Assembly (NCBI RefSeq): GCF_001650635.1 | Contig: NZ_LWQU01000127.1 | Coordinates: forward strand, 1-51,338 | Length of the DNA stretch: 51,338 nucleotides | DNA from: Magnetospirillum moscoviense | GTDB taxonomy: Bacteria > Pseudomonadota > Alphaproteobacteria > Rhodospirillales > Magnetospirillaceae | Direction: 5' to 3' | Shown: positions 31,082 to 50,039 of the stretch, piece by piece | Position numbering within the stretch: the stretch's first letter is position 1 | Layout of the letters: each line of letters starts with the position of its first letter | Translations under genes and position numbers: made by a program | Notes under the pieces: generated by a model | Databases searched by the model: none | What the model saw: only the letters and a program-made list of their open reading frames with translations | What the model was told of the DNA's origin: nothing

Positions 31082-31172
31082 GGCACCAATCTCAGGTTCG
31101 GGACCAGAGATTGAATTTGCGGGACAATTGAGGGACACTGAGCCGTTAGGCACTGTCCCGGAGTGTCCCCCA

Positions 31173-32309: not shown

Positions 32310-32648
32310 TTGTTGGCCCGTCTGGCCGGCGCCCTCACCACGCTCACCGCCACCCTGGCCGACCGTCAGGACGCCCGCGCCCGCGACACCGAGTTCATCA
32401 AGGCGGGGCGCAGCAACACCCGCGCCAACGTGCTGCTGGTCACCGCCGGACTTGGCATTGTCGGCGGCATCGGCTTCATGGTATTCGGCCATGTGGACGG
32501 CAACACCGCCGTCGGCGGCTGCATCATTTCCGTGATCACTTTGCTCGCCGGCAAGTTCGCCACTGCCTTTGATTTCGAATTCGGTGGATCGGCAGATTCA
32601 GAGCAGACTCGCACACTGCTGGCGCAGGCGTCACCGATCGGCAAGTAG
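32310..32648 (+). CDS. hypothetical small membrane protein, possibly a fragment
   Basis: About 112 residues with two hydrophobic segments (VLLVTAGLGIVGGIGFMVFG and GGCIISVITLLAGKFATAF) and a hydrophilic tail. The start is uncertain (TTG at 32310, no clear ribosome site), so the N-terminus may be missing. The overall pattern, a charged N-terminus then two membrane segments, recalls small phage or island membrane proteins. I do not recognise a family. Confidence 0.4.
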   Translation: MLARLAGALTTLTATLADRQDARARDTEFIKAGRSNTRANVLLVTAGLGIVGGIGFMVFGHVDGNTAVGGCIISVITLLAGKFATAFDFEFGGSADSEQTRTLLAQASPIGK

Positions 32649-34564: not shown

Positions 34565-34566
34565 AA

Positions 34567-35256
34567 CTAGGGGATCACCGTTATTGGCGCGGCGAAGATA
34601 TAGCCTCTACCACGAGCCGGCTTGATCACCGAGCTTTCCTTATCCGACGTCGCGATTTTTCTCCGCAAGCGACTGATGACGGCCTCCAGACGCCGGTAAT
34701 CGTAATCCTCCTCGCGATGCCCGAGTGCCTTGACGAATTGCTGTCGGCTGACGATGTCCGGCGCGGCTTCCGCAAGCGGGCGCAGCAGAAGCATTTCGGT
34801 CGGGGTCAGCGTGATCGGTTCACCCTTGGGCGTCATGATCGTCATGGTGGACAGGCTCAGGGTCCAGCCCGGCCCGCGATGGTCGGCCACGGCTGGCGAA
34901 ATGCGCCTGCGGATGCTCTCGATGACGGCACACAATTCCCGCATGTCGACCGGCTTGGTCAGGTACGCGTCGGCCCCTTTTTCCAATCCGCTGATCCGGT
35001 GATGCTGGCTGGATCGTGCGGTGAGCATCAAGATCCGGATTTCGGGATGAGACATGCGAAGGCGGTGGGTGATGGACAGGCCGTCCTCGCCGGGAAGCCC
35101 CAGGTCAAGGACGGCAATCTCGATGTGATGCACCGCCAGCACCTGGTCGAGGCCGGCGCCATCGGCGGCGATGAAGATCTCGTGCCCGGCCCGCTGCAAA
35201 TGGAACTGCACTTCTTCGCGGAAGTCGGAATTGTCCTCGACCAGCACTATTCGCAT
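34567..35256 (-). CDS. OmpR/PhoB-family response regulator
   Basis: 229 residues. Receiver domain: VEDNSDF with the acidic pair, phospho-Asp in AVLDLGLPGEDG near residue 51, Thr in MLTARSS, Lys in LTKPVDM near 102. C-terminal winged helix (about 135-229) with ITLTPTEMLLLRPL, the DYDYRRLEAVISRLRRKI recognition region and GRGYIF wing. ATG start preceded by GGAGG and overlapping the kinase gene end by 10 bases. Probable binder of the 10-bp-spaced GTCAG repeats at 37288 and 40236. Confidence 0.92.
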   Translation of the reverse strand: MRIVLVEDNSDFREEVQFHLQRAGHEIFIAADGAGLDQVLAVHHIEIAVLDLGLPGEDGLSITHRLRMSHPEIRILMLTARSSQHHRISGLEKGADAYLTKPVDMRELCAVIESIRRRISPAVADHRGPGWTLSLSTMTIMTPKGEPITLTPTEMLLLRPLAEAAPDIVSRQQFVKALGHREEDYDYRRLEAVISRLRRKIATSDKESSVIKPARGRGYIFAAPITVIP

Positions 35257-37241
35257 TGGCCGGCCTCCTGCTTCGCTCCGGCCTGTTCCGTATCGGTCGG
35301 CAGCCAAGCCAGGAAGCAGATTCTTCCCTTCGTATTTTCCTCCAGTTGCACCCATCCCCCATGTCGTTCGAAGATGTACCGGGTCAGGTAAAGCCCCAAT
35401 CCCATGCCGGCTTGGCCGGCTTCCTCGCTGCCGCGAACATATTTGTCGAAAATCGTGGTTTCGATGTCGCGCGGAATTGCCGCCCCATCGTTGACGATCG
35501 ACCAGCACAGGCCGCTTCGGCCGTCATGGAAACGAGGCGAAACGTCCACTTCGATGGGCGAATTGCGGGGGGAATACTTCACCGCGTTGTCCAGCAGATT
35601 GAGGAGAGCAAAACGGAGCATGCGCTCGTCCGCCTGGACCGAAGGAAGTGTGGTGCCGGAGCGAACCGCTACCCGCTTTTCCCCCTCGGGACCAAGAAGC
35701 TCGACACTTTCCTGCATCAACCCTTTGATATTGATCGGATGGCGGGCGGGTTCGCTGTAATCAGCCTCCAGGTTCTGGCGATGCGTCGCCAAATCCAGCA
35801 TGGCCTTCAACCGCTCGACCGCGCCTCCGATCCGGTCATAGCGCTTTTCGCGATCGGGCGACGTATCGGTATCAAGGACCCGAAGCGTCTGGTTCGCCGC
35901 ATCGATGACAGCCACCGGGGTAAGAATTTCGTGGCCGATCATGTCCAGCAGACGCTCGCGCTCGATCCTTATTTCCCTTTCCATGCTTCCTTCCTGCAGC
36001 GCTCTTTCAGCAACGGCTTCGGCGACGAGTTTGTCCCGCTGAGCGCGATGAGCGCGCAGGAAAAGGCTTGAATGCAGGATCGCGAAATGAATCACGCTTC
36101 CGCCCAGCGAGCTTATGAGAGACAGCTTCGTCGGCTCGGTAAGGCCAAGGGCGGCCGTCAGCGTCGTAAAAAGCAGCCCGGCGTAAAATGTATAGGCGAG
36201 CGCGATCAGTCGGCTTTCGGCGTCCCGATTGCGCCAAAGGGAGGTCAGGGGTTTCAGAAAGACAAGAAGTGACGCGATCATCGCGAGCAATAGCAGCGGC
36301 GCAAAGGCAGAGTAGTAAGGTGTAAACGCGGATATTGCCGTGGCGCCGCCCAATAGGGCCATGCCCCAGATCACCCGATCAGACCAGGGGAAACGGCCCG
36401 GCAGCCGAAGAACCTGGGCATAGAAGCGAAAGCCGAAGATCGCCCCCAGTCCCATCGTGGCCCCCAGCATCTGGTTGGCGATCAACGGGTGATCGGGCAG
36501 CGCGAATTGCGCCAGCAATCCGTCGATGGCAAAAAAATGCACGCCGATCAATGACACGTAGCCCGAATAGGTCAGGTAAATGCTCTGGCGGTTGATGGCG
36601 AAGCCGATCAGGTTGAGGAACGTCACCGTCAGAAGAGCGCCGTAATAGAGGCCGAGCAAGGCGGACTCGCCGCTGACGGCGTGCTCGAAAGCGGAAGGCT
36701 GCCAGAAGCGGGGCAGCACGGTCATCGCGCTGGTGCTCTTGACCCTCAGATAGAGACGGCTTTTTCCCACCGGAATGTGGAGCGGGAAGAGAAAGTTCCG
36801 GTATTCCTCCGTTCGGGCCGAGAACGGGAGCCTGTCGCCGGCCGTCGCCCCGTGCCGCACACCGTCGGGGGGCAGGAGATAAAGGTCCAGGTGGTCGAGA
36901 TAGGACGGCATGACTTCAAGCAGCCACCTCTCCGGGGCGCCCTCGGGCAGGACCAGATCCATGCGCAGCCAGATGGTGTCCGGCGTATAGCCAAGTCCCA
37001 CATTGCCGGGGATCGGCTTGAACCTTCCCGCCGTGTCGATCCCGATGATCTCGTCCAATGTCCGGGTTCCCTCGGGATCGCGGAAGATCGCCATATGGCC
37101 GCGCCCGTCCACGTCGCCGGCCCGACCGTCGAGCATTACGGGAGAGGAAGCCTGGGCAGAATCCACAAGTACCGCCAGCAGCCCAAGGATGGCCAGGACC
37201 TGTAAAATCACGCTCAGAGCCTTTCGGCGGCAAGACAACAT
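35247..37241 (-). CDS. 7TMR-DISM sensor histidine kinase
   Basis: 664 residues. Signal-like N-terminus, a periplasmic 7TMR-DISMED2-type beta domain (about 45-180, with GYTPDTIWLRMDLVLP and the YLDHLDLYLLPP pattern), seven membrane segments (about 190-400), coiled linker, HisKA H-box DMIGHEILTPVAVID near 448, HATPase with NLLDNAVKYSP and GMGLGLYLT. DISM domains often sense carbohydrates or surface ligands. First gene of the kinase-regulator-barrel operon and divergent from the repeat-protein genes. Confidence 0.93.
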   Translation of the reverse strand: MLSCRRKALSVILQVLAILGLLAVLVDSAQASSPVMLDGRAGDVDGRGHMAIFRDPEGTRTLDEIIGIDTAGRFKPIPGNVGLGYTPDTIWLRMDLVLPEGAPERWLLEVMPSYLDHLDLYLLPPDGVRHGATAGDRLPFSARTEEYRNFLFPLHIPVGKSRLYLRVKSTSAMTVLPRFWQPSAFEHAVSGESALLGLYYGALLTVTFLNLIGFAINRQSIYLTYSGYVSLIGVHFFAIDGLLAQFALPDHPLIANQMLGATMGLGAIFGFRFYAQVLRLPGRFPWSDRVIWGMALLGGATAISAFTPYYSAFAPLLLLAMIASLLVFLKPLTSLWRNRDAESRLIALAYTFYAGLLFTTLTAALGLTEPTKLSLISSLGGSVIHFAILHSSLFLRAHRAQRDKLVAEAVAERALQEGSMEREIRIERERLLDMIGHEILTPVAVIDAANQTLRVLDTDTSPDREKRYDRIGGAVERLKAMLDLATHRQNLEADYSEPARHPINIKGLMQESVELLGPEGEKRVAVRSGTTLPSVQADERMLRFALLNLLDNAVKYSPRNSPIEVDVSPRFHDGRSGLCWSIVNDGAAIPRDIETTIFDKYVRGSEEAGQAGMGLGLYLTRYIFERHGGWVQLEENTKGRICFLAWLPTDTEQAGAKQEAGQCE

Positions 37242-37287
37242 CTGATTATCCCATCTGCCTCAAAAAACATCCTTTGAATGAAATCGT

Positions 37288-37390
37288 GTCAGCCAATGTC
37301 AGCTTCCGTCAGGGAGGGTCAGACTCATCAGCTAGAATCTTGTTTTTACACTGTTTTTCATTGCAGGCACTTAATTTCGAACAATACTAT
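37288..37390 (+). promoter_or_regulatory. helically phased GTCAG repeats and promoter of repeat-protein gene 1
   Basis: GTCAG at 37288, 37298, 37308 and 37318, exactly 10 bp apart, with a further TCAG at 37328. Downstream, TTGCAG (37361-37366), 18 bases, TACTAT (37385-37390) is a plausible promoter, about 37 bases before the start codon at 37428. Direct repeats at 10-11 bp are the usual target of OmpR/PhoB-family regulators. Confidence 0.65.
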
Positions 37391-37427
37391 ATCCAACGGC
37401 GATGATGGGTCGAGGGCGAGAAGCGGC

Positions 37428-40067
37428 ATGGGCAAGGTTTTGCACAAATCCGGTCAATCAACGGGTCGGGTCTTTGCCCCGATGATGGCGCTTGAACCGC
37501 GCATCATGTTCGACGGCGCGGCCATGGCCGAGGCCATCGACGCGCATTCGGATGGGGCGGATGCCGTCATGCCGGTCGCGGTGACGACCAATCCGCGCGT
37601 TCTGCTGCTGTCCTCGCGCGTCGCCGACGGCGGTGATCTGGCGCTTGCGGCCAAGGACGATGTGCTGGTGGTGCGCTATGACGCCGAAGCCGACAGCCCG
37701 GATGCCATCCTGAGCCGTCTTTCCCATGCGCTGGACGGGCAGCAGGCTTCGTCCATCGCCCTGGCCTCGCACGGCGCAAACGGCGCGTTCGAGCTGACGG
37801 CGCAATACGGCGTGTCGCTGGCGGGAATTGCCGGCGACGGCGCGCTGCAAGCCTTCATGACGGCCCTGGGGGCACAGATCACCGAGGGCGGGCGCATCGA
37901 TCTGCTGGCCTGCGGCGTGGCGGGCGATAGTGCGGGGAATGCCCTGCTGGCTTACCTGTCCGACATCACGGGGCGTTCGGTTGCCGCCTCCACCGATTCC
38001 ACGGGCAATGCGGCGTTCGGCGGCGACTGGCACCTGGAAGCCGGCGATGTGGATGCGTCCCAGTATTTCCATGCGGCGGCACTGGCGGGGGTTGACGGAT
38101 TGCTTGCCAATCCCGAAATGGTCGCGGATATCAACCCTGGCGTAAATAGTAGCAGCGTAGGTATGCCGGTCAACGTGAACGGCACCCTGTATTTTAGGGC
38201 CAATGACGGCACCAACGGTATTGAGCTGTGGAAATACGACAGGATCAACGCGCCCAGCATGGTCGCGGATATCCGCGCCGGCGCTAACAGCTCTGGCCCA
38301 AACAATTTGGCCAACGTGAACGGCACCCTGTATTTTGGGGCCAATGACGGCACCAACGGTACTGAGCTGTGGAAATATGACGGGACCAACGCGCCCAGCA
38401 TGGTCGCGAATATCAACCCCGGCGCAAACAGCTCTGTGCCAGAATATATGACCAACGTGAACGGCACCCTGTATTTTGGGGCCACTGACGGCACCAACGG
38501 TCAAGAGCTGTGGAAATACGACGGGATCAACGCGCCCAGCCGGGTCGCGGATATCAACCCCGGCGCAAACAGCTCTACCCCAGAATATCTGACCAACGTG
38601 AACGGCACCCTGTATTTTAGGGCCGACGACGGCACCAACGGTAGGGAGCTGTGGAAATACGACGGGACCAACGCGCCCAGCCGGGTCGCGGATATCCGCG
38701 CCGGCGCAAACAGCTCTTCCCCTGGCAATATGATCAACGTGAACGGCACCCTGTATTTTGGGGCCAACGACGGCACCAACGGTACTGAGCTGTGGAAATA
38801 CGACGGGATCAACGCACCCAGCATGGTCGCGGATATCAACCCCGGCGCAACCGGCTCTAGCCCGTCATATCTGACCAACGTGAACGGCACCTTGTATTTT
38901 TCGGCCAGCGACGGCACCAACGGTAATGAGCTGTGGAAATACGACGGGACCAACACGCCCAGCATGGTCGCGAATATCGGCCCCGCCGGAAGTCCCGGTA
39001 ACATAGAATTTATAACCAACGCGAACGGCACCCTGTATTTTTCGGCCGGCGAAGGCACCAACGATCTAGAGTTGTGGAAATACGACGGGATCAACGCGCC
39101 CAGCAGGGTCGCGGATATCTGGCCCGGCGCAACCGGCTCTTCCCCTACCAATATGATCTACGTGAACGGCACCCTGTATTTTTCGGCCTCTGAAGGCTCC
39201 AATGGTAGAGAGCTGTGGAGATACATCCCGCCCTCCACCGCGTCATCGTCGTCGTCGTCGTCGTCTCCGCCCCCCCCGCCAAGGACGGGGGAGGCCGTCT
39301 CGGTGAAAATCCAGGCTCCGATTGCTCAGACAGGCGATACCGGTGCTTCCCTCGTCACCGCCGTGCGGGCGCCTGCGGGTGAATTCGCTCAAGGGGTTCA
39401 GGGCAATTTCCAGGCGATGCGGCACCTGAGCACGACCGGCGGCAACGGTTTCCAAGTGGCCGTGGGAACACCCTCGGTCAACGCCGTCCGAGACGGTGCG
39501 CTTTTCGTGCAAAAGGGAATCCCTGCGGTTCTGCCGGAAAGCCGGATGGTCAATTTCTCCATTCCGATCGATGCCTTTGGGCATACCAGCGCTGAGGCCA
39601 ACATCACCTTGGCCGCCAAGTTGACCGATGGGCGCCCGTTGCCGGCATGGCTTTCCTTCGATTCTGCCAAGGGGGTTTTTGTCGGTGAAGCGCCAGAAGG
39701 CTTTAACGGCGCCCTGTCGGTGGTGGTGGTTGCCCGTGACAATGCCGGTAACGAGGTGGGCACGACCTTCGAGATTCGGGTCCGCGGCGGTGGCAGCGTC
39801 ATTCAGAACAACGCGCCGCCGGCCTCCGAGAACCAGCCGCCGCAGGGCGAGGTGCCGCAGGCGCCCGGCCAGCAGGGCGAACTGGCGCCCGACCCGGCTG
39901 CTCCGGTCATCAAGCTGTCGGATTTCGGCCCGAGTCAGACCTTTGGGGGCCAGACCTTCGCCGGCAAGCCGAGTTTCCAGGAAGAACTGCGCATGGCGAA
40001 CCGCCTGTCCGGCGCCCGTCAGGCCCAATTGCTGGCTGCGGCCCGCGCCGTCGCCCGCACTGCGTAA
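37428..40067 (+). CDS. LEPR-motif / DUF4347 surface repeat protein, copy 1
   Basis: 879 residues. N-terminal LEPRIMFDGA motif (residues 22-31), DUF4347 domain (about 58-225: VLLLSSRVAD, IALASHGANG, IDLLACGVAGDSAG, SVAAS...GGDWHLE), eight 47-residue repeats with NGTLYF and ELWKYDG (about 231-606), a Ser/Pro hinge, an Ig/cadherin-like domain with VNFSIPIDAFGH and LPAWLSFDSAKGVFVG, an acidic-proline linker and a conserved C-terminus ending QAQLLAAARAVARTA. There is no ordinary signal peptide; LEPR motifs mark large exported proteins. ATG start has GAGAAG upstream; the longer frame covers promoter sequence. Likely a secreted or surface-anchored adhesin. Confidence 0.85.
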   Translation: MGKVLHKSGQSTGRVFAPMMALEPRIMFDGAAMAEAIDAHSDGADAVMPVAVTTNPRVLLLSSRVADGGDLALAAKDDVLVVRYDAEADSPDAILSRLSHALDGQQASSIALASHGANGAFELTAQYGVSLAGIAGDGALQAFMTALGAQITEGGRIDLLACGVAGDSAGNALLAYLSDITGRSVAASTDSTGNAAFGGDWHLEAGDVDASQYFHAAALAGVDGLLANPEMVADINPGVNSSSVGMPVNVNGTLYFRANDGTNGIELWKYDRINAPSMVADIRAGANSSGPNNLANVNGTLYFGANDGTNGTELWKYDGTNAPSMVANINPGANSSVPEYMTNVNGTLYFGATDGTNGQELWKYDGINAPSRVADINPGANSSTPEYLTNVNGTLYFRADDGTNGRELWKYDGTNAPSRVADIRAGANSSSPGNMINVNGTLYFGANDGTNGTELWKYDGINAPSMVADINPGATGSSPSYLTNVNGTLYFSASDGTNGNELWKYDGTNTPSMVANIGPAGSPGNIEFITNANGTLYFSAGEGTNDLELWKYDGINAPSRVADIWPGATGSSPTNMIYVNGTLYFSASEGSNGRELWRYIPPSTASSSSSSSSPPPPPRTGEAVSVKIQAPIAQTGDTGASLVTAVRAPAGEFAQGVQGNFQAMRHLSTTGGNGFQVAVGTPSVNAVRDGALFVQKGIPAVLPESRMVNFSIPIDAFGHTSAEANITLAAKLTDGRPLPAWLSFDSAKGVFVGEAPEGFNGALSVVVVARDNAGNEVGTTFEIRVRGGGSVIQNNAPPASENQPPQGEVPQAPGQQGELAPDPAAPVIKLSDFGPSQTFGGQTFAGKPSFQEELRMANRLSGARQAQLLAAARAVARTA
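38118..39240 (+). repeat. eight tandem 141-bp coding repeats (ELWKYDG type)
   Basis: Unit of 47 codons, pattern MVADINPGANSS...NVNGTLYF..NDGTNG.ELWKYDG.NAPS, repeated eight times in frame; the last is degenerate (ELWRYIPPS). Alternating T/I before NAPS and RAG/NPG variants suggest unequal exchange within the array. Confidence 0.9.
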
Positions 40068-40090
40068 GCACTCAGAGGGACCACTTCAGT

Positions 40091-40225
40091 ATGAGCAATG
40101 TTTCCGTCCGCGCGATCCGCCGACTGGAAGCTGTTTCCACCGTCGCCCTGCTGAGCGCCTGCGCCGTGACGCCAACGCCGTTCACGGCCGATGAGTTCAT
40201 CGCCAACTCAAAAAACATCCTTTGA
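40091..40225 (+). pseudogene. remnant of the TolC-like lipoprotein gene (first ~35 codons)
   Basis: A 44-codon frame whose residues from AVSTVALLSACAVTPTPFTADEF match the start of the intact lipoprotein at 43177 almost exactly, including the lipobox LLSAC. After ADEF it runs into the second promoter unit and stops. Its first residues (MSNVSVRAIRR) differ from those of the intact gene. It could still be translated as a tiny lipoprotein. Confidence 0.85.
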
Positions 40226-40235
40226 ATGAAATCGT

Positions 40236-40338
40236 GTCAGCCAATGTCAGCTTCCGTCAGGGAGTGTCAGTTTCATCAGCTAACGTCATGTTTTCACAAT
40301 GTTTTTTCATTGCTGGTACCTCTTTCGAACAATACTAT
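40236..40338 (+). promoter_or_regulatory. helically phased GTCAG repeats and promoter of repeat-protein gene 2
   Basis: GTCAG at 40236, 40246, 40256 and 40266, again exactly 10 bp apart, then TTGCTG (40310-40315), 17 bases, TACTAT (40333-40338). Same layout as at 37288, with substitutions concentrated between the repeats and the promoter. Confidence 0.65.
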
Positions 40339-40375
40339 ATCCAACGTTGGAGATGGGTCGAGGACGAGAAGCGGC

Positions 40376-43153
40376 ATGGGCAAGGTTTTGCGCAAATCCG
40401 GTCAATCAACGGGTCGGGTCTTTGCCCCGATGATGGCGCTTGAACCGCGCATCATGTTCGACGGCGCGGCCATGGCCGAGGCGGTGGACGCGCATTCGGA
40501 CGGGGCGGATGCCGTCATGCCGGTCGCGGTGACGACGGAACCGCGCGTTCTGCTGCTGTCCTCGCGCGTTGCCGACGGCGATGATCTGGCGCTTGCGGCC
40601 AAGGATAATGTGCTGGTGGTGCGCTATGACGCCGAAGCCGACAGCCTGGATGCCATCCTGGCCCGCGTTTCTGATGCGCTTGACGGGCAGCAGGCCGCAT
40701 CCATCGCGCTGGCTTCGCACGGAGCGAACAACTCGTTCGAACTGATCGCGGGATATGACGTGTCGCTGGCGACACTCGCCGGCGACCAGAATCTGCAAAC
40801 CTTCATGGCGGATCTGGGGAAGCAGGTGACCGCCGGCGGGCGCATCGATTTGCTGGCCTGCGGCGTGGCGGGCGATAGTGCGGGGAATGCCCTGCTGGCT
40901 TACCTGTCCGACATCACGGGGCGTTCGGTTGCGGCATCCGACGACGCCACGGGCAACGCGGATTCCGGCGGCAACTGGCACCTGGAAGCCGGCGACGTGG
41001 ATGCGTCCCAATACTTCCATGCCGAATTATTGACGGCGTTTGGCGGATTGCTTGCCGATCCCGTGGCAATGACTGGCTCAGGCATTAGTAGTATAGATAG
41101 GTTAACCAACGTGAACGGCACCCTGTATTTCACGGCCGATGACGGCACCAACGGCACTGAGCTGTGGAAATCCGACGGAACGGCGGCCGGCACCGTCATG
41201 GTCAAGGATATCCGGACCGGGGGCAGTTCTACGCCGATCAGCCTGACCAACATGAACGGCACCCTGTACTTTCGGGCCAATGACGGCACCAACGGCAGTG
41301 AGCTGTGGAAATCCGACGGAACGGCTGCCGGCACCGTCATGGTCAAGGATATCCGGACCGGGGGCAGTTCTTCGCCGGACAAACTGACCAACGTGAACGG
41401 CACCCTGTATTTCCGAGCCAATGACGGCACCAACGGCACTGAGCTTTGGAAATCCGACGGAACGGCGGCCGGCACCGTCATGGTCAAGGATATCCAGACC
41501 GGGGGCAGTTCTATCCCGAGCGATCTGACCGACGTGAACGGCACCCTGTATTTCACGGCCAATGACGGCACCAACGGCACTGAGCTGTGGAAATCAGACG
41601 GAACGGCGGCCGGCACCGTCATGGTCAAGAATATCAATGCCGGGGGCAATTCTTCGACGGGCAAGCTGCTCAACGTGAACGGCACCCTGTATTTCTCAGC
41701 CGATGACGGCACCAACGGCGATGAGCTGTGGAAATCCGACGGAACCGATGCCGGCACCGTCATGGTCAAGCATATCCGGACCGGGGGCAGTTCTTCGCCG
41801 AACCGCCTGACCAACGTGAACGGCACCCTGTATTTCGCAGCCGATGACGGCACCAACGGCAATGAGCTGTGGAAATCCGACGGAACCGAGGCCGGCACCG
41901 TCATGGTCAAGAATATCTGGACCGGGGCCAATTCTTCTACGCCGGAACAACTGACCAACCTGAACGGCACCCTGTATTTCTCAGCCGATGACGGCACCAA
42001 CGGCCGGGAGTTTTGGAAATCCGACGGAACCGAGGCCGGCACCGTCATGGTCAAGGATATCCAGACCGGGGCCAATGCTTCTTCGCCAGAAGAACCGACC
42101 AACCTGAACGGCACCCTGTATTTTGAGGCCAGTGACGGCACCAACGGCACTGAGCTTTGGAAATCCGACGGAACGGCGGCCGGCACCGTCATGGTCAAGG
42201 ATATCCGGACCGGGGCCTTCGGTTCTTCGCCGACCAATCTGATCGTCGTGAACGGCGCTCTTTATTTTACGGCCAGTGACGAAAGCGACACAAAACTTTT
42301 TAAGTTTTCCCCCCCCACCACCACCACCAGCACGGCAACGACGTTGTTCTCCCCACCCCCGCCGCCAAAGACGGGGGAGTCCGTGTCGGTGAAGATCACG
42401 GCCCCCATAACTAAGACAGGGAGCGCCGATACGTCCCTCGTCACCGTCGTACGAGCGCCCGCTGCTGGGGTCTCGCAAGGGTTTCAGGGTGACTTCCAAG
42501 CGGCGCGCACCCAGGGGACGACCAGGGATGGCGGCTTCCGAGTGGCCGTGGGGACCCCCTCGGTCAACTCCGTCCGGGACGGCGCGCTTTTCGTGCAAAA
42601 GGGGATTCCCGCGGTTTTGCCTGAAGGCCGGATGGTCAACTTCTCCATTCCGGTGGACGCCTTTGGGCATAGCAGCACCGAGGCCGCCATCACCTTGGCC
42701 GCCAAGTTGACCGATGGGCGTCCGTTGCCGACCTGGCTGTCCTTCGATACGGTCAAGGGGGCTTTTATCGGTCAAGCGCCGGAAGGCTATAACGGCGCCT
42801 TGTCGGTGGTGGTGGTTGCCCGTGACAATGCCGGCAACGAGGTGAGCTCGACCTTCGAGATTCGGGTCCTCGGCGGTAGCGGCGTCATTCAGAACAACGC
42901 TCCGCCGGCCTCCGATGGCCAGCCGCCGCAAGGCGAGGCCCAACCTCCCGCCGAGGGCCAAGCTCCCGATCAGAGCGGCGAGGCGTCGCCCGACCCGACC
43001 GCGCCAGTCATCAAGCTGTCGGATTTCGGCAAAGGCCAGACCTTCGCCGGCAAGCCGACCTTCCAGGACGAACTGCGCATGGCGAACCGCCTGTCCGGTG
43101 CCCGTCAGGCCCAATTGCTGGCTGCGGCCCGCGCCGTCGCCCGCAACGCATAA
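40376..43153 (+). CDS. LEPR-motif / DUF4347 surface repeat protein, copy 2
   Basis: 925 residues, same architecture as copy 1: LEPRIMFDGA at 22-31, DUF4347 (about 58-225), eight full 47-residue repeats of the form NGTLYF..NDGTNGTELWKSDGTAAGTVMVKDI (about 244-645) plus a degraded ninth, a Thr/Pro hinge, the same Ig/cadherin-like domain and C-terminus (QAQLLAAARAVARNA). The repeats match the classical ELWxxDGT consensus more closely than those of copy 1. The gene is followed by 23 bases and the TolC-like gene, so it probably heads the export operon. Confidence 0.86.
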   Translation: MGKVLRKSGQSTGRVFAPMMALEPRIMFDGAAMAEAVDAHSDGADAVMPVAVTTEPRVLLLSSRVADGDDLALAAKDNVLVVRYDAEADSLDAILARVSDALDGQQAASIALASHGANNSFELIAGYDVSLATLAGDQNLQTFMADLGKQVTAGGRIDLLACGVAGDSAGNALLAYLSDITGRSVAASDDATGNADSGGNWHLEAGDVDASQYFHAELLTAFGGLLADPVAMTGSGISSIDRLTNVNGTLYFTADDGTNGTELWKSDGTAAGTVMVKDIRTGGSSTPISLTNMNGTLYFRANDGTNGSELWKSDGTAAGTVMVKDIRTGGSSSPDKLTNVNGTLYFRANDGTNGTELWKSDGTAAGTVMVKDIQTGGSSIPSDLTDVNGTLYFTANDGTNGTELWKSDGTAAGTVMVKNINAGGNSSTGKLLNVNGTLYFSADDGTNGDELWKSDGTDAGTVMVKHIRTGGSSSPNRLTNVNGTLYFAADDGTNGNELWKSDGTEAGTVMVKNIWTGANSSTPEQLTNLNGTLYFSADDGTNGREFWKSDGTEAGTVMVKDIQTGANASSPEEPTNLNGTLYFEASDGTNGTELWKSDGTAAGTVMVKDIRTGAFGSSPTNLIVVNGALYFTASDESDTKLFKFSPPTTTTSTATTLFSPPPPPKTGESVSVKITAPITKTGSADTSLVTVVRAPAAGVSQGFQGDFQAARTQGTTRDGGFRVAVGTPSVNSVRDGALFVQKGIPAVLPEGRMVNFSIPVDAFGHSSTEAAITLAAKLTDGRPLPTWLSFDTVKGAFIGQAPEGYNGALSVVVVARDNAGNEVSSTFEIRVLGGSGVIQNNAPPASDGQPPQGEAQPPAEGQAPDQSGEASPDPTAPVIKLSDFGKGQTFAGKPTFQDELRMANRLSGARQAQLLAAARAVARNA
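41107..42300 (+). repeat. eight tandem 141-bp coding repeats (ELWKSDGT type) plus a degenerate ninth
   Basis: In-frame units with NGTLYF, DGTNG, ELWKSDGTAAGTVMVK and a variable DI.TGGSS segment. Within-array similarity is much higher than similarity to the copy 1 array, while the flanking domains stay near-identical between copies. Confidence 0.88.
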
Positions 43154-43176
43154 ACACTCAAGGGGATCACTTCGTT

Positions 43177-44859
43177 ATGACCGTCGTCACCACTCGCATG
43201 GCCCGCCTGCTGGCCGCTGTTTCCACCGCTGCCCTGCTGAGCGCCTGCGCCGTGACGCCAACGCCGTTCACGGCCGATGAGTTCTCCGCGCGTGCCAAGG
43301 CCGACCGCGCCGCCATGTTCGAAGGCCAGGAGGTGATGAGCAAGCCGCTGACCCTGGCCGATGCGGTGGCCCGCGTGCTGAAGTACAATCTGGACAAGCG
43401 CGCCAAGATGATGGACGAGGCCCTGGCCCTGGGCCAGACCAGCCTGGACCGCTTCGAGCTGCTGCCCAAGCTGACCGCCAATGCCGGCTATACCGAGCGA
43501 TCCGAGCCCAACGCCACCCGCTCGCGCGATCTTTATACCCAGACCACCAGCACCTCGAACCCCAGCTACTCGGCGGATCGCTTCTCCATCACCAGTGACC
43601 TGGGGCTGACCTGGAACATCCTGGATTTCGGCGTGTCCTATTTCACGGCGCACCAGAACGCCGACCGCGCCCTGATCGCGAGTGAGAGGCGACGCAAGAC
43701 CATCAATAATCTGGTCCAGGAGGTGCGCTTCACCTTCTGGCGCGCCGCCGCCGCACAAACCTTGAAGGCCAAGGTGACCGACACCATCACCTCGGCCGAG
43801 AAGGCGCTGAAGGATTCGGAAAAGGTCGAGACCGAGCGCCTGAAGAACCCCATCGAAAGCCTGCGCATCCAGAAGACCCTGCTGGAAAGCATCCGCCAGC
43901 TGGAAGCCATCGACCAGGAACTGACCTCGGCCAAGGCCGAACTGGCCGCCCTGATCAACGTTGCGCCCGGCAGCGATTTCAAGCTGGATGTGCCCCCCAA
44001 TGGCGGCATGAGCGTGCCCGAATGGCCCATGGACATCGGCGCCATGGAACAGGCCGCCATGATCAACAACCCGGATCTGCGCGAGCAGGATTACCAAAGC
44101 CGCATCGCCCTCGACGACACCCACAAGGAGATCCTCAAGCTTCTGCCCGGCATCACCGTGTCGTTCTCGCGCCAGTACGATTCCAATTCGTTCCTGGTGG
44201 ACAACCGCTGGAACGATGTGGGCACCAAGGTCACCTGGAACCTGATCAACCTGCTGGCGGCGCCCGACCGCATGGCCCATGCCGACAGCGCCGAGAAGGT
44301 GGTCGAGGCCAAGCGCATCGCGCTGCGCATGGCGGTGCTGGCCCAGGTCCATGTGGTGTCCCACCAATTCGCCAGCGCCGCCAAGCAGTTCGAGCGGGCC
44401 GACAAGCTGTGGGGCATCGAGAAGCGTCTGGCCGACGCCTCGGGCAACCAGAGCCGCGGCGGCACCGCCAACGAGATCGAGCGCATCAGCACCGAGACCT
44501 CGGCCATCGCCGCCGAGCTTCGCCGTTTCCAGACCTTTGCCCAGATGCAATCCTCTTACGGCAAGCTGCAATCGACCATCGGCGCCGATCCGGTGCCGGA
44601 AAAGGTGGCCTCGCACTCGCTGGAGGGCCTCTCGGGCGCCATCGTCCTGACCATGCCGCCGGTGGTGAAGGCCGATCCGGCGCCGGTGACCGCGCCCGAG
44701 GTAATGACCGCCGCCGCCGAGCCGGAGGCGAAGAGTGCCACCACCGAGCCGGAGGCGATGACCGCCGCAGCCGAGCCGGAGCGGGAAGACGTGGTGCGCG
44801 ACGGGTTGTTCTGGCTGGGCCGCAAGATCGCCACCCTGGTCGAGCAGACCGATCAATGA
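43177..44859 (+). CDS. TolC-like outer membrane lipoprotein
   Basis: 560 residues. Lipoprotein signal with lipobox LLSAC (Cys near residue 24), then OEP-type helical hairpins in two halves (LADAVARVLKYNLDKRAKMMDEALALGQ; LTSAKAELAALINVAP; LLPGITVSFSRQYDSNSF; second long helix with ASGNQSRGGTANEIERISTE). The C-terminal tail of about 80 residues carries an AAEPEA-type low-complexity repeat. Forms the outer membrane channel of tripartite exporters. Start ATG follows AAGGGGATC. Confidence 0.88.
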   Translation: MTVVTTRMARLLAAVSTAALLSACAVTPTPFTADEFSARAKADRAAMFEGQEVMSKPLTLADAVARVLKYNLDKRAKMMDEALALGQTSLDRFELLPKLTANAGYTERSEPNATRSRDLYTQTTSTSNPSYSADRFSITSDLGLTWNILDFGVSYFTAHQNADRALIASERRRKTINNLVQEVRFTFWRAAAAQTLKAKVTDTITSAEKALKDSEKVETERLKNPIESLRIQKTLLESIRQLEAIDQELTSAKAELAALINVAPGSDFKLDVPPNGGMSVPEWPMDIGAMEQAAMINNPDLREQDYQSRIALDDTHKEILKLLPGITVSFSRQYDSNSFLVDNRWNDVGTKVTWNLINLLAAPDRMAHADSAEKVVEAKRIALRMAVLAQVHVVSHQFASAAKQFERADKLWGIEKRLADASGNQSRGGTANEIERISTETSAIAAELRRFQTFAQMQSSYGKLQSTIGADPVPEKVASHSLEGLSGAIVLTMPPVVKADPAPVTAPEVMTAAAEPEAKSATTEPEAMTAAAEPEREDVVRDGLFWLGRKIATLVEQTDQ

Positions 44860-44877
44860 TACCGGCGTGCCGCTGAC

Positions 44878-45612
44878 GTGACGCGCCTTATTGCCCTCAA
44901 GCGCTGGGCGATACCGCTCCTGAGCCTTCTGTCCTTCGGGGCCGAGGCGCAGGAGCCGGTGATTCCTGTGCAATTAGTCGCGGTGAATTACACCACGCTG
45001 TCGGCCGAACTGCCCGCCAAGATCGACCGCATCACCGTCAAGGAGGGCGAGCGCTTCAAGGAGGGCCAGCAATTGGTGGCCTTCGATTGCACCATCCAGC
45101 GGGCCCTGGTGGATGAGGCCAGCGCCGTTTTTTCCGCCGCCGAGAAGTCCAAGGCGGTGCACAAGCGGTTGCTGGAGCTCAACTCCACCGGCACCCTTGA
45201 GGCGGAGAAATCAGGCTGGGATGCGGCGGTAGCTCAGGCCAAGCTCAACTCGGCCCGTGCCGTGGCGTCCAAATGCACCGTCAGCGCGCCGTTCGCAGGC
45301 AGGGTGGTGGAGCAGAAGGCCCGCGCCCATCAATACGTCCAGGTGGGCCAAGCCATCCTGGAGATTCTGGATGATTCCTTGCTGAACGCTGAATTCATCG
45401 TACCCTCGTCGGCGGTGACGACCTTGAAGCCCGGTACCTCTCTTCAGATCATGGTGGACGAGACCAGGAAGACTTATCCGGGCCGGATCGCCCGCATGGG
45501 CGCCAAGGTCGATGCGGTCAGCCATTCGGTCAAGATCACCGCCGAGATCAAGGGCGACTTCCCCGAATTGATGGCGGGAATGACGGGAAAAATCAGCATG
45601 GCCCCGCAGTGA
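44878..45612 (+). CDS. periplasmic adaptor (HlyD/RND membrane fusion protein)
   Basis: 244 residues, short for the family. Signal peptide (about 1-24, ending GAEA), barrel-sandwich halves (IDRITVKEGERFKEGQQLVAFD and CTVSAPFAGRVVEQKARAHQYVQVGQAILEI) flanking a short helical hairpin, then a beta-barrel (AEFIVPSSAVTTLKPGTSLQIMV). GTG start, 18 bases after the TolC gene. No RND pump gene accompanies it. Confidence 0.88.
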   Translation: MTRLIALKRWAIPLLSLLSFGAEAQEPVIPVQLVAVNYTTLSAELPAKIDRITVKEGERFKEGQQLVAFDCTIQRALVDEASAVFSAAEKSKAVHKRLLELNSTGTLEAEKSGWDAAVAQAKLNSARAVASKCTVSAPFAGRVVEQKARAHQYVQVGQAILEILDDSLLNAEFIVPSSAVTTLKPGTSLQIMVDETRKTYPGRIARMGAKVDAVSHSVKITAEIKGDFPELMAGMTGKISMAPQ

Positions 45613-46895
45613 GCGAGGCGCTCGTCACCCTGCTGGGGATCGAGGAGCAAGCGCTGAAGGCGCGCACCACCATCCAGCTCGCTTTCGTCATGGTCAACGA
45701 CACCCGCGCCCTGGTGGAATACCATCAGGCGGCGCTGCATATGGCGGACAAGGGGGTGGTGGCGGTTTCGGGAGTGTCCTCGGTGGAGGAGAACGCGCCC
45801 TTCACCTTGTTCCTGCAACGGATGTTCAAGCTCCATGAGGCCGGCAAGGAAATTTCTTCCGCCGAGCGCGAGGAATGGGCGGATTGGCTGCCGCCCAAGC
45901 CCTTGTTCCTGCCGCTGAAGGATGCCGACGGCAAGCGCCTGGGCACGCTGCTTCTGGCCCGCGACGAGGATTGGGACGCCGGCACCACGGCGATCGTGCA
46001 GCGGCTGACCGATGCCTACGCCTTCGCCTGGGCGGCCAAGCACCAATCCGCACAGCTGTCCCGGTGGCGCCACCGTCTGAGCAGCCTGCCACGCTGGAAG
46101 CGGATGGTGGCGGCGGGAATCCTCCTGGCCCTGATCTTTCCCGTCCGCCTGTCAGTCCTGGCCCCGGCCGAAATCGTCCCCTCGGACCCGGCGGTGGTCC
46201 GCGCCCCCCTGGACGGTGTGATCGAATTGGTCCGCGCCCGGCCCAACCAGAGTGTCGCGGCGGGAGACGTTCTGTTCGAACTGGACCGCACCACCATCGC
46301 CGGCAAGCTGGAGGTGGCGGCCAAGGTCCTGGATACGGCCAAGGCTGAACTGGACCAAGCCACCCAGCAGGCCTTCTTCGACCCCAAGGCCAAGGCCGGC
46401 TGGGCGGTCCTCAAGGCCAAGGTGGAGGAGAAGCAGGCCGAACGCGCCCAGCTCGAAGACCTGATGACCCGCGCCCAGGTCAAGTCGCCCCGCGACGGTC
46501 TCGCGGTGATGGACGATCCCAGCGAATGGATCGGTCGTCCGGTCAGCGTGGGCGAAAAGGTGCTGGCGGTGGCCGATCCTCGTCAGGTGGAGGTGGAAGC
46601 CTGGCTGGCGCCCGCTGATTTGATCCCGTTGGAGCCGGGCGGGAAGGTGGTCCTGTTCCTCAACACCGCCCCGCTGTCACCCGTCGTGGCCACGCTGTCC
46701 TATGTGGCTTTCGAGGCGAGCTTGAAGCCCGACGGGGTGTTGGCCCATCGGGTGCGGGCGAAGATTGCCGATGCCGACACCCTTCCCCGCATCGGATTGA
46801 AGGGCACGGCCCGCCTGGATGGCAGCCGGGTCCCCCTGGTCTACTGGCTGTTCCGTCGACCGCTGGCCGTGATCCGGCAATGGCTTGGATGGTAG
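45609..46895 (+). CDS. GAF-like/transmembrane/HlyD adaptor protein
   Basis: 428 residues. A cytoplasmic N-terminal GAF-like domain (about 1-150, with AFVMVNDTRALVEYHQAAL and KPLFLPLKDADGKRLGTLLL), one membrane segment near 163-180 (MVAAGILLALIFPVRLSVLA), then a periplasmic HlyD-type region with APLDGVIELVRARPNQSVAAGDVLFELD and AQVKSPRDGLAVMDDP. GTGA start-stop overlap with the preceding adaptor. The combination of a cytoplasmic sensor-like domain with an adaptor is unusual. Confidence 0.82.
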   Translation: MSEALVTLLGIEEQALKARTTIQLAFVMVNDTRALVEYHQAALHMADKGVVAVSGVSSVEENAPFTLFLQRMFKLHEAGKEISSAEREEWADWLPPKPLFLPLKDADGKRLGTLLLARDEDWDAGTTAIVQRLTDAYAFAWAAKHQSAQLSRWRHRLSSLPRWKRMVAAGILLALIFPVRLSVLAPAEIVPSDPAVVRAPLDGVIELVRARPNQSVAAGDVLFELDRTTIAGKLEVAAKVLDTAKAELDQATQQAFFDPKAKAGWAVLKAKVEEKQAERAQLEDLMTRAQVKSPRDGLAVMDDPSEWIGRPVSVGEKVLAVADPRQVEVEAWLAPADLIPLEPGGKVVLFLNTAPLSPVVATLSYVAFEASLKPDGVLAHRVRAKIADADTLPRIGLKGTARLDGSRVPLVYWLFRRPLAVIRQWLGW

Positions 46896-46900
46896 CGATG

Positions 46901-47194
46901 TTAGCGGTCGAGCCGCCTCCGCTCCAATTCCTCGGTGCCTCGACGCCACTCCTCCACGAGCAGTCCAAGCTCGACGTTCTCCAGAACCAAGCGGGGAACC
47001 GGGCGGGTCTCGCAGGGGGACGGAACCAGCAGGCGTGCCACATCTTCGATGCCGCGACGCTGGCCCGGAATGCTGAAGCGTTCGATTTCGATGCCAATAT
47101 CCTTGCCGGTTTCTGCCAATTCGCAATCGGATTCGGCCATGGCCGAGGAGGTGAAGGCCAGAAACGCGGTGGTGACTGCCCAGATCCTTCTCAT
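46901..47194 (-). CDS. small secreted hypothetical protein, antisense within the export cluster
   Basis: 97 residues. Signal peptide (MRRIWAVTTAFLAFTSSAMA) then a charged domain with two cysteines (SDCELAE, PSPCETRP) and a helical Glu/Arg-rich tail. Start ATG preceded by ACGGAG. It is the only gene of the block on the minus strand, convergent with the GAF/HlyD gene (5-base gap) and divergent from the protease fusion (26-base gap). No family recognised. Confidence 0.55.
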   Translation of the reverse strand: MRRIWAVTTAFLAFTSSAMAESDCELAETGKDIGIEIERFSIPGQRRGIEDVARLLVPSPCETRPVPRLVLENVELGLLVEEWRRGTEELERRRLDR

Positions 47195-47220
47195 CTCCGT
47201 GTCTCCATGAGGGGGTGGGA

Positions 47221-49329
47221 ATGACAACAGAGATGGGTATTCTGCCGATGCTCCGCACCGAGCTGTCCTTGCATCCCGGCCCCGCCGAAGCCGACGGCTC
47301 GCCGTCCTGGACCATCCGCGACCCGGTCCGCAACCGCTTCTTCCGCATTTCCTGGCCGGCCTTCGAGATCCTTAGCCGCTGGTGGGCCGGGACGCCCGCC
47401 GAAATAGCCGAGGCGGTATCGGCCGAAACCACGCTTCATCCCACGGAAGACGACGTAAAGGGCGTGGCCGAGTTTCTGGTCGCCAACCAATTGACCCAAT
47501 CGGCAGGCCCCCAAGACACGCAAAGGCTGGCGTCGCGGGCCGAAGCCGAGAAGCCGTCCTGGTTCCACTGGCTGATGCACCATTACCTGTTCTTCCGCAT
47601 CCCCCTGGTCCGGCCCGATCACTGGCTCGGGCGGACACTGCCGTTGGTGCGCTGGCTGGGATCGCACGGGTTCCAGGTGACGACCATGATGGCCCTGACC
47701 ATCGGTCTGATACTGGCGGGACGGCAATGGGATCTGTTCGTCGCCACCCTGGTGGACACCTTCTCGCTATCGGGGCTGGTGTCCTATGGCATCGCGCTCA
47801 CGGTGGTGAAGGTGATCCACGAGCTTGCCCATGCCTACACCGCCAAGAACCATGGCTGCCGCGTGCCCAGCATGGGGGTGGCCTTCCTGGTGCTGTGGCC
47901 CATGCTCTACACCGACGTCAACGACACCTGGATGCTGCCCGAGCGCAAGAAGCGCCTTCAGGTCGGCTCGGCGGGTATCCTGGCCGAACTCACCGTCGCC
48001 GCCTGGGCAACCCTGGCTTGGGCGTTCCTGCCCGAGGGGCCGCGGAAGCAGGCGGCCTTCGTGCTGGCGGCGCTGACCTGGATCTCGTCGCTGGCCATCA
48101 ACTTAAGCCCCTTCATGCGTTTCGACGGCTATTTCATCGCCATGGACGCGATGGAGATGCCGAACCTGCACCCGCGCTCCTTCGCCATGGCGCGATGGTG
48201 GCTGCGCAACGTGCTGTTCGGGCTGGACGCGCCGCCGCCGGAACCTCTGCCTGTGGCTAAGCGCCGGGCGCTGATCGCCTTTGCCGTGGCGGTGTGGGTC
48301 TATCGCCTGGTGCTGTTTCTGGGCATCGCCGTCATGGTCTACCACTTCTTCATCAAGGCCGTGGGCATCGTGCTGTTCGTGGTGGAAATCTGGTGGTTCG
48401 TTGCCCGGCCCATCTGGGCCGAGATGCGGGAATGGGAGAAAGTGAAGACGTCCATCATGGCGGGAACACGTATCCGCTGGACGCTGGGCACGCTTGGAGC
48501 CCTCATCCTGCTCGCCCTCATCCCCTGGCAGGGCAGTGTGAGCGCGCCAGCGGTGATGAAGGGGAGCCGATCCGCCGCCCTCCATTTGCCCTTCCCCGCC
48601 CGGCTGGAAGCAATCCACGTTTCCCATGGGCAGGCGGTGAAGCCGGGCGACGTGCTGATGAGCTTCACCGCCCCCGACATCGCCTTGCGCAAGGCGGTAG
48701 CCCAGGCCCTCATCGACGGCAAGACCGCCGAGTTTGAAGCCGCCACCCTCGATCCTTTGCTGCGGGACCGTGCCGGCATCGTGCAAGAGGATCTGCGCAA
48801 GGCCCAGGCCGAGCTGGCCGCCCTGGATGCGGAAGCAAATCGCCTCGCTATTCTCGCCCCCATGGACGGTAGAATCCTCGATATCCTGCCCGACATGAAG
48901 CCAGGCGACTGGCTTTCACCCCGCCAGAAGCTCGGGCTTGTCCTGGAAAATTCCGCCCCGATCGCGGTCGCCTATGTGGCCGAGGACGACCTCGCCCGTA
49001 TCGAGAACGGTGCAGGCGCCACCCTCTCTCCCCGCGCCTTGGAAAGCCCGTCCCGGACCGGGCGCGTCCAGCGGATCGATCCGTCACCCGCCAAGACCCT
49101 GCCCGATGGGGCGCTGGCCTCCGTCCATGGCGGCGACATTCCCGCGCGGGTCTCGGGGCAGAATATCGTTCCCGACGGCGCCATCACCCGGGTGACCATC
49201 AACCTCGAAGGCCCGCCGCCCGCCCATGAGGAAATCGGGACAATCTCCATCGAGGCCGAAAACTCCAGCCTCATCGGCCGGCTGGCCAGGTCGGTCATGG
49301 TCGTGCTGATCCGTGAATGGGGGGCGTAG
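47221..49329 (+). CDS. PqqD-like / M50 site-2 protease / HlyD fusion protein
   Basis: 702 residues. N-terminal PqqD-like winged helix (about 20-95, FRISWPAFEILSRWWAGTPAEIAEAV), then an M50 intramembrane protease core with zinc motif HELAH (200-204) and the third ligand in NLSPFMRFDG (Asn 294, Asp 302) among about eight membrane segments, then from about 435 a HlyD barrel-sandwich (PFPARLEAIHVSHGQAVKPGDVLMSF; RLAILAPMDGRILDI; YVAEDDLARIENG). All catalytic residues are present. ATG at 47221 chosen over GTG at 47215 because of GAGGGGG spacing. Such fusions are often labelled peptide zinc metalloproteases. Probable energy-independent processing or gating component of the export block. Confidence 0.85.
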   Translation: MTTEMGILPMLRTELSLHPGPAEADGSPSWTIRDPVRNRFFRISWPAFEILSRWWAGTPAEIAEAVSAETTLHPTEDDVKGVAEFLVANQLTQSAGPQDTQRLASRAEAEKPSWFHWLMHHYLFFRIPLVRPDHWLGRTLPLVRWLGSHGFQVTTMMALTIGLILAGRQWDLFVATLVDTFSLSGLVSYGIALTVVKVIHELAHAYTAKNHGCRVPSMGVAFLVLWPMLYTDVNDTWMLPERKKRLQVGSAGILAELTVAAWATLAWAFLPEGPRKQAAFVLAALTWISSLAINLSPFMRFDGYFIAMDAMEMPNLHPRSFAMARWWLRNVLFGLDAPPPEPLPVAKRRALIAFAVAVWVYRLVLFLGIAVMVYHFFIKAVGIVLFVVEIWWFVARPIWAEMREWEKVKTSIMAGTRIRWTLGTLGALILLALIPWQGSVSAPAVMKGSRSAALHLPFPARLEAIHVSHGQAVKPGDVLMSFTAPDIALRKAVAQALIDGKTAEFEAATLDPLLRDRAGIVQEDLRKAQAELAALDAEANRLAILAPMDGRILDILPDMKPGDWLSPRQKLGLVLENSAPIAVAYVAEDDLARIENGAGATLSPRALESPSRTGRVQRIDPSPAKTLPDGALASVHGGDIPARVSGQNIVPDGAITRVTINLEGPPPAHEEIGTISIEAENSSLIGRLARSVMVVLIREWGA

Positions 49330-50039
49330 CAGTGACAATTTTGTATTCACTACAATCCGATTCGCCCTGCGCCCTTGCCGCCGACAAAGCGAATGCCAGA
49401 GAAGCCGATCCGGCTGCCAAGACCGGTCGGATCCGCTGGAATGAGGCCGCGATTGGGCATCGACAACATCATATGCCATTGATTCTTAAACAGAGAAGGT
49501 TTGCTGTCAGCCTCCGTCCCTCCAGCGAATTGCCCCAGTTCTGTAAATTGCATGAATTCTAGCGAGGTCGAACAGACGTGGCCATCCTGGAACCCCCGTA
49601 TTGGTCGGCTGCAGCTACGCGACGCCTGAGAGCTGCGCCACTTCAGGTGGATTAGCCCATAAGGCGCGGCTCGGTCGATGGATCAGAAGCTGGCCGACAA
49701 TTCTACGCGATTACCACCCTGAAGCGGCCTGACCGCTATCGGCCCCATTCGGTCGGTTCGGCGCCCTTTTCCACCGTCTTGTGGTACGAGGGGTTTGGCT
49801 CAAAAGTGGAAATTCATCTGGTTATTCTTTTCGCTTCCTGCGTGAACGCCCGCGCAGCCTGCTGAAACGCGGTGTGTCGGTCGACGCGGCTGATGCTTTG
49901 GGGGAAGCGCGCCCACAAGGGCCGGGCCATTTCGTCTACAGGGCCATCGAGCGTTATTGCCGGCGAAAATCAGGCCGCGTTCTGACTTTGTGCTGATTGT
50001 ATTCCGACTATCAATCCTGTCGGTGACCTCTGCGCTTTA
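49330..50039. other. gene-free stretch, about 710 bases
   Basis: Short frames only (for example 49781-49996, with RFLRERPRSLLKRGVSVDAAD), none with a convincing ribosome site or recognisable family. The codon pattern is mixed, consistent with decayed DNA between the export block and the insertion element. No terminator hairpin with a T-tract seen after the protease fusion. Confidence 0.6.

Follow-up and report, generated by a model that had tools for sequence, protein, structure and literature searches.

A probable SecA-less export cassette for LEPR-tagged repeat proteins in Magnetospirillum moscoviense

How could very long repeat proteins leave a bacterial cell when the genes beside them encode adaptors, an outer-membrane protein and a protease-like membrane protein, and no recognisable motor? 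The question is raised by a locus on contig NZ_LWQU01000127.1 of Magnetospirillum moscoviense (assembly GCF_001650635.1), of which the 51,338 nucleotides analysed here are called the window. Six genes, all on the forward strand between positions 37278 and 49329, encode two proteins with the N-terminal motif LEPRIMFDGA (LEPR proteins), a TolC-like protein, a short HlyD protein, a transmembrane (TM) HlyD protein with a GAF-like N-terminus (GAF-HlyD) and a fusion of PqqD-like, M50 (site-2 protease-like) and HlyD domains. An earlier note on this DNA, made from the letters alone, had described the same six genes with the motif occurring twice, and all of them were found again. We propose, with a probability of roughly 0.7, that the cassette serves specifically to export very long LEPR repeat proteins of the surface or secreted type, and that it forms a SecA-less branch of a module described by Kamneva, Poudel and Ward in 2015 (PMC4452313). 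The SecA-less class to which the window belongs is referred to as class A, and the class with a SecA-like ATPase as class B.

The earlier note had treated the block as one unit that accompanies LEPR proteins, and the distribution of its parts bears this out. Both window LEPR proteins contain a DUF4347 domain. Among 199 genomes of the order, the fusion (counted at E ≤ 1e-20) was present in 53, DUF4347 in 50 and both in 46; in a sample of 349 genomes of the phylum, a close fusion (E < 1e-180) was present in 75, DUF4347 in 90 and both in 69. Hence, DUF4347 was found in 46/53 fusion genomes versus 4/146 without fusion in the order (Fisher p 8e-33), and in 69/75 close-fusion genomes versus 21/274 others in the phylum (p 1.7e-46), both p-values being inflated by shared ancestry. 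With a looser phylum fusion set (E ≤ 1e-20), the proportion was 73/90.

Exceptions occur in both directions. In the order, DUF4347 without a fusion was seen in G091, G115, G130 and G174, and a fusion without DUF4347 in G018, G054, G093, G096, G100, G102 and G107. In G054 and G018, class B-type genes and a secondary SecA were found; the SecA of G018 is broken, and this genome also holds class A fragments. The fusion of G102 is only partial, the cassette runs into the contig start in G093, G096 and G100, and in G107 a LESRMMFDA protein of 2368 aa adjoins the cassette. In the phylum sample, six genomes have a close fusion and no DUF4347, and G356 shows a weak DUF4347 match only. A LEPR repeat protein nevertheless stands beside the fusion despite absent or weak DUF4347 in G492 (LEQRFVFDG), G356 (LEQRMMFDA), G280 (LEPRLLFDG), G418 (LEPRMMFDA) and G389 (LEPRLLLDA); none was found among the fusion neighbours in G255 and G399, the contig ending there in G399. 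In addition, eight loci of the named genomes introduced below contain a LEPR protein without a match to the DUF4347 profile. The constant element of the substrates is the LEPR N-terminus, not DUF4347.

Physical linkage is stronger evidence than co-occurrence in genomes. We collected 143 class A neighbourhoods, 63 from the order and 80 from named genomes, where a single-sequence scan with the window fusion (P0006) gave no match and an alignment-based search was needed. They are not all independent: the order set includes the decayed locus L013 of the own genome and several contig-edge loci, and the named set partly duplicates order loci (e.g. L058/L110, L065/L111, L074/L112 and L083/L132). A gene was counted as in view when it exceeded the score limit anywhere within the retrieved stretch. 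On this count, GAF-HlyD accompanied the fusion in 59/63 order and 75/80 named loci, and TolC, short HlyD and GAF-HlyD were jointly in view in 54/63 and 36/80. A LEPR protein was in view in 63/143 loci (43/63 order, 20/80 named). Among the other 80, L114 has DUF4347 with a cut N-terminus and 79 have neither LEPR nor DUF4347; 48 of these 79 (9/20 order, 39/59 named) contain a long frame that runs off the retrieved DNA, and many other substrate-less loci begin near a contig end. The pattern that the earlier note had named as fatal to its proposal, fusions standing mostly without LEPR proteins, is not what these neighbourhoods contain, some intact flanks without a substrate apart. Judged by record titles, cassettes occur in Alpha-, Beta- and Gammaproteobacteria, in Magnetococcales and in Desulfuromonadales-type metagenome-assembled genomes, and public species genomes hold at least 593 stretches encoding a fusion relative. 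Since gene order is kept across Pseudomonadota, the arrangement goes beyond chance.

A second line of evidence comes from the comparison of the two classes. Class B M50-HlyD proteins are divergent, scoring about 280-360 bits against the class A model, with about 25-27% identity to the window M50. None of the 143 class A neighbourhoods contains a SecA match. A single match occurs in the own genome and likewise in 45/46 order genomes with both fusion and DUF4347, G127 having two that possibly reflect a split gene. Among 74 close-fusion genomes of the phylum, 39 have one SecA match, 33 have two or more (six with a weak partial second) and two have none. Wherever its neighbourhood was read, the extra SecA adjoins the divergent M50-HlyD gene and not the window class. 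Sixteen class B-type regions contain an intact SecA frame (659-820 aa) in 14 cases, a broken one in L256 and none in L266, and four further regions contain SecA in L316, L318 and L319 and none in L317; most class B regions were picked for having a SecA match. Nine regions were picked by a divergent M50 match alone (G018, G054, G291, G351, G128, G246, G382, G357 and G491): SecA is present in seven, broken in G018, and absent in G128 and G382.

The N-terminal tags follow the same division. Beside class A machines, the LEPR motif ends in D[GA] in 62/63 cases, and the 63rd (L052) reads LEPRMMFDGA by eye. Giant DUF4347 frames of 6,562 to 14,920 aa end beside class B clusters; seven of them, picked because DUF4347 and a secondary SecA share one contig, all have the N-terminal motif [LM]E[PQ]RxxLSG. 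As judged from frame lengths and positions, the giant lies directly before GAF-HlyD in G204, G303, G315, G263 and G212 and plausibly so in G259; in G498 another long frame lies between. The SecA-less class B-like clusters have the tags LEPRLLFSA (L317) and IEPRVLLSA (L327). At the other end of the protein, a C-terminus RI[QVA]W was found in 5/9 complete frames before class B GAF-HlyD (L248, L249, L252, L254 and L255) and is absent from L250, L257, L264 and L266. Both classes coexist in at least seven genomes (G204, G212, G259, G263, G303, G315 and G498), and the DUF4347 and M50 trees each split A from B (support 0.97 and 1.0). As far as sequences tell, two LEPR dialects match the two classes, LEPRxMFD[GA] beside the SecA-less machine and LEPRxLLSG beside the SecA class, and this match gives new support for recognition of the LEPR motif.

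What would do the recognising? The fusion gene (P0006; 47215-49329, +) starts with a domain (47221-47532) that the earlier note had called PqqD-like. Pfam does not detect PqqD in P0006, and finds it in only 1/36 class A fusions (E 0.22). Profile comparison upheld the assignment: the class A N-terminus aligns with PqqD in hhalign (64%, E 6.5e-5; reversed control E 0.27) and with the class B N-terminus (96%, E 1.5e-9), and the Pfam model of PqqD is over its cut-off in five class B genes. Because of the profile comparison, and not of Pfam, we assign the N-terminus as PqqD-like. The earlier note had also called the protease motifs intact, as they are: H, E and H of the HELAH zinc motif (47818-47832), and N, P, D and G of the third zinc-ligand motif NLSPFMRFDG (48100-48129), are invariant in 36/36 aligned relatives, and HELAH-type and NxxPxxxxDG-type patterns occur together in 144/145 class A fusion open reading frames (ORFs). 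By its motifs, the fusion belongs with M50/site-2 proteases in a polytopic protein, its proteolytic activity being putative. The HlyD/biotinyl-lipoyl adaptor domain (48538-49326) resembles MacA/HlyD-type structures by sequence. A class B-like M50-HlyD gene in L266 (7898-10168) has HEFGH, and may encode an inactive protein because its third motif is altered to NGNPLQRFDS.

The other machine genes precede the fusion. The TolC-like outer-membrane protein (P0003; 43177-44859, +) matches the OEP family (E 1.8e-25) and has a lipobox-like LLSAC by eye. The short periplasmic adaptor of HlyD/RND type (P0004; 44878-45612, +) starts with GTG, exceeds the TIGR01730 cut-off and has a Sec-like leader by eye. 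GAF-HlyD (P0005; 45609-46895, +) has one TM segment by eye; the GAF domain that the earlier note ascribed to it is not detected in P0005 itself, and PF01590 matches 10/28 members of its family (4 of the 28 are class B). The HlyD_3 and OEP Pfam models are over cut-off in the cassette. Overlapping starts, claimed for these genes, exist only between HlyD and GAF-HlyD (4 bp); TolC and HlyD are separated by 18 bp, and GAF-HlyD and the fusion by 319 bp.

The two LEPR proteins are the predicted substrates. Substrate 1 (P0001; 37428-40067, +) comprises the LEPR tag (37491-37520), DUF4347 (37599-38102; Pfam E 2.8e-29), ELWxxDGT repeats, He_PIG and a C-terminal tag beginning GKPSFQEELR (39960-40064, bounds approximate). 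Substrate 2 (P0002; 40376-43153, +) has its tag at 40439-40468 and its DUF4347 at 40547-41053 (E 3.2e-30), and in both proteins the repeats (TIGR04534) follow DUF4347. The frames are open from 37278 and 40226, and translation probably starts at 37428 and 40376 (MGKVL...) rather than there, since the whole open frame of several relatives begins just 10-25 codons before LEPR; the DNA upstream of 37428, which appears AT-rich by eye, points the same way for substrate 1. No Sec signal is evident by eye in LEPR proteins, which show a basic stretch and no long hydrophobic core. Their C-termini are conserved: a strict pattern, G[KR]x[SAGTN][FLM]...[QED][LIMV], fits 38/61 distinct ends, 0 of 12,200 internal segments and 2.2% of 1,271 other ORF ends, and a loose one, [FL]..Q[LIM], fits 45/61, 1.6% and 4.7%, respectively, both patterns having been written after the sequences were viewed and their sets overlapping. 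Both window substrates fit the strict pattern and not the loose one.

DUF4347 is probably a caspase-like (clan CD) domain, found in many but not all substrates. A His (58/61), a Gly (59/61) and a Cys (60/61) are conserved, and in substrate 2 the His-Gly and Cys stand as in a clan CD-like pair. Weak matches were obtained to CHAT (3/42, best E 2.1e-5, one member over cut-off) and C80 (4/42, best E 0.0022). Searches of solved structures returned 9qpe_G, a chain named 'DUF4347 domain-containing protein' (E 1.2e-4), and, for substrate 2 DUF4347, an ECT2-like animal chain, 11xu (E 3.9e-8), in whose alignment the His and Cys are not conserved. Neither is decisive, and matches to de novo TIM barrels were set aside as composition artefacts. 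In L102 (2221-5520), a caspase domain (Peptidase_C14, E 5.6e-17) closes a substrate that combines LEPR, DUF4347 and WD40-like repeats, and the C-terminus of L105 (10432-13650) resembles this end by eye.

Where, then, is the motor? The motor gene is missing from the locus. No ABC (ATP-binding cassette) or SecA gene lies inside the window block, in agreement with the earlier note as regards ABC; its claim that an RND pump is absent as well is covered by Pfam and NCBIfam scans of the block's genes, no dedicated RND model search having been made, and no such gene recurs near the cassettes. One rival is an incomplete type I secretion system, whose ABC ATPase (PrtD, LssB or HlyB type) would be supplied from elsewhere and to which the M50 fusion would be a processing accessory. 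The HlyD and OEP parts are type I-like, a C-terminal tag is conserved among the substrates, in which no Sec signal is evident, and in L151 the fusion is followed after 33 bp by an exporter-type ABC frame in the same orientation. An ABC gene consistently adjacent in relatives, which the earlier note had said would overturn its proposal, is not what was found: profile search located ABC ATPase frames in 12/143 loci (a simpler earlier pattern flagged 11 and missed L080 and L166). These are of mixed kinds, and exporter-type with a membrane domain only in L151 and in L080, where the gene lies 53 bp away on the opposite strand; the others are importer-, Mla- or DrrA-like single ATPases. Among the 46 order genomes with fusion and DUF4347, the PrtD cut-off was exceeded in 17 and that of LssB in 8, neither in 27/46 including the own genome (the HlyB model was not run), and ABC exporters that are of other types or below cut-off occur in all 46. 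The sister module moreover carries a SecA-like gene, not an ABC gene. On this balance, an incomplete type I system of this kind appears quite unlikely.

A different proposal, towards which the earlier note leaned in letting the fusion take the place of the ATPase, dispenses with a dedicated ATPase: entry through an M50-HlyD channel would be driven by the proton motive force or by repeat folding outside, with proteolysis making it irreversible. It fits the cassette as it stands, since the only Walker-A-like unannotated ORF (≥110 aa) inside the 143 cassettes lies on the opposite strand, none being on the coding strand, and it fits the strict conservation of HExxH and the single SecA match of 45/46 genomes. 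No constant extra gene emerged from the 143 loci: apart from cut substrate genes and antisense frames, the recurrent candidates are kinase and regulator genes, a small protein encoded after the fusion (8 loci), tail-collar proteins and a mixed ABC-ATPase cluster (6 loci), each confined to a minority. A sulfotransferase-family gene lies beside the cassette in 7 loci (e.g. L077, 4461-5591). However, the SecA-like motor of class B, in the same gene group, suggests that an ATPase is normally needed, and a canonical SecA or ABC protein could work in trans. We regard export without a dedicated ATPase as unlikely, and the complete absence of a motor as less likely than one lost, borrowed or unrecognised, because the sister module has a SecA-like ATPase beside the same kind of M50-HlyD gene. 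Finally, GAF and site-2 protease domains are often regulatory, and a two-component system adjoins the window cassette. The block could on these grounds be a regulatory or efflux module, with GAF sensor, protease and adaptors, set by chance beside surface-protein genes, the protease freeing a regulator. The genome-wide association with LEPR proteins, the matched dialects, the presence of TolC together with three HlyD-bearing proteins, and the lack of any regulator among its constant genes make this very improbable.

We therefore return to the dedicated export machine, which might work as follows. On the cytoplasmic side, the PqqD-like domain of the fusion would bind the LEPR tag, a possibility that the earlier note had raised. 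The polytopic M50 domain would form the entry at the inner membrane or act as its gate, and may also clip the tag. In the periplasm, the HlyD part of the fusion, GAF-HlyD and the soluble HlyD could assemble into a mixed tube that docks on the TolC-like protein. Release or anchoring would follow once the C-terminal tag signals that the chain has ended, and DUF4347 may process the substrate. Energy would most likely be supplied by a motor encoded elsewhere, either canonical SecA or an ABC protein of general function, or else by folding outside that acts as a ratchet. A bolder version seems doubtful to us: secretion of proteins of 900 to several thousand residues by a machine that has no ATPase of its own, in which the PqqD-like domain would read the LEPR dialect, the protease would both gate and clip, the power would come from neither ABC nor SecA, and FDGA and LSGE would keep two machines apart in one cell.

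Several points weigh against the export machine as proposed. Secretion itself is inferred from adaptor and TolC homology and from the type of substrate. Some fusions have intact flanks and yet lack a substrate or a full cassette (for example L065/L111, L148, L170, and L313 in G255). Class and motor are imperfectly tied, as two class B-like M50 genes stand without SecA (L266/L327 and L317). Within class A, M50 and DUF4347 distances correlate weakly (r 0.12 over 52 loci; 118/2000 permutations as high), and therefore no pair-by-pair co-evolution is demonstrated. Dialect and machine class could also have been co-inherited without direct contact.

The own genome has a second full cassette on contig C152 (L012), with a full-length fusion 58% identical to P0006 and the gene order of the window: a LEPR-DUF4347-cadherin protein (2424 aa), TolC, HlyD, GAF-HlyD and fusion, with no ABC gene. 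On C206 lies a third, decayed copy whose fusion is short of about 108 residues, and C180 holds a remnant; all three DUF4347 domains of the genome lie within the two cassettes. Beside the second cassette, three small secreted proteins with a Phage Tail Collar domain are encoded (L012, 2298-4589), relatives of which occur near the cassette in 21/143 loci.

Upstream of the window cassette, and divergent from it, lie a 7TMR-DISM sensor histidine kinase (35247-37241, -), which is outside the machine and a possible regulator, an OmpR-type response regulator (34567-35508, -; start uncertain) and a TonB-receptor-like gene. Relatives of the kinase were found by phmmer in 16/143 loci including the window, strongly in L049, L050 and L066 only. 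Genome G133, of the same genus, has two copies of a unit of at least 13.2 kb that are 99.1% identical (L049 and L050) and match window positions 32989-49352 piecewise, the match starting near the TonB-receptor gene and reaching just past the stop codon of the fusion. The G133 duplicate spans the kinase, the regulator and the cassette, which therefore seem to be moved or duplicated jointly. A phage-type tyrosine recombinase gene (31074-32171) lies between rodA/PBP2-like genes and the cassette. The small gene at 32323-32648 recurs on C206, 89% identical, next to a resolvase-like gene and near the decayed cassette there.

How does this cassette compare with known systems? Only PMC4452313 was found to bear on the machinery, and no literature tying LEPR or DUF4347 to the module was found in a search that left preprints and most subscription papers outside. 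The sections of that study considered here describe a secondary SecA_DEAD gene beside M50/HlyD, GAF/HlyD and HlyD genes, propose SecA as the ATPase and M50 as the membrane pore, call the role 'completely unknown', and name no substrate (PMC4452313). As far as these sections go, the window shares with that module the side-by-side M50-HlyD and GAF-HlyD genes, a HlyD/biotinyl-lipoyl protein and the lack of ABC; it differs in that TolC is part of the cassette, whereas the published module has OEP only sometimes, and in that the published loci carry the SecA-like ATPase of class B, found in none of the 143 loci of the window class (PMC4452313). By name, the LEPR-XLL model NF012209 covers the same N-terminal tag family. 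Class B giants read LEPRFMLSGE or LEPRFLLSGE, whereas with the window tag LEPRIMFDGA substrate 2 reaches 14.9 bits, under the 17-bit cut-off, and substrate 1 is not among the matches listed. The M50 domain of the fusion matches the daptide protease model (E 2.5e-47), below its cut-off (161.8 versus 300 bits); unlike the metalloproteases of daptide and epipeptide (YydH/LiaK) systems (NF041824, NF058609), it is fused to PqqD-like and HlyD domains and accompanies giant proteins, not small peptides. With type I secretion (HlyB/HlyD/TolC), the cassette shares HlyD adaptors and an OEP/TolC protein beside a large, C-terminally tagged repeat protein, and it differs by having no ABC protein, three HlyD-bearing proteins, an M50 fusion and an N-terminal tag.

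Two orphan observations, giant proteins tagged with LEPR and loci of the M50/GAF-HlyD kind, would thus merge into one widely distributed and testable pathway. Its two-dialect signal makes recognition directly testable, and its SecA-less class poses the question of the power source. Overall, compared with these known systems, the machinery is not wholly new; what is new is the substrate class, the LEPR giants, and the two matched forms of tag and machine.

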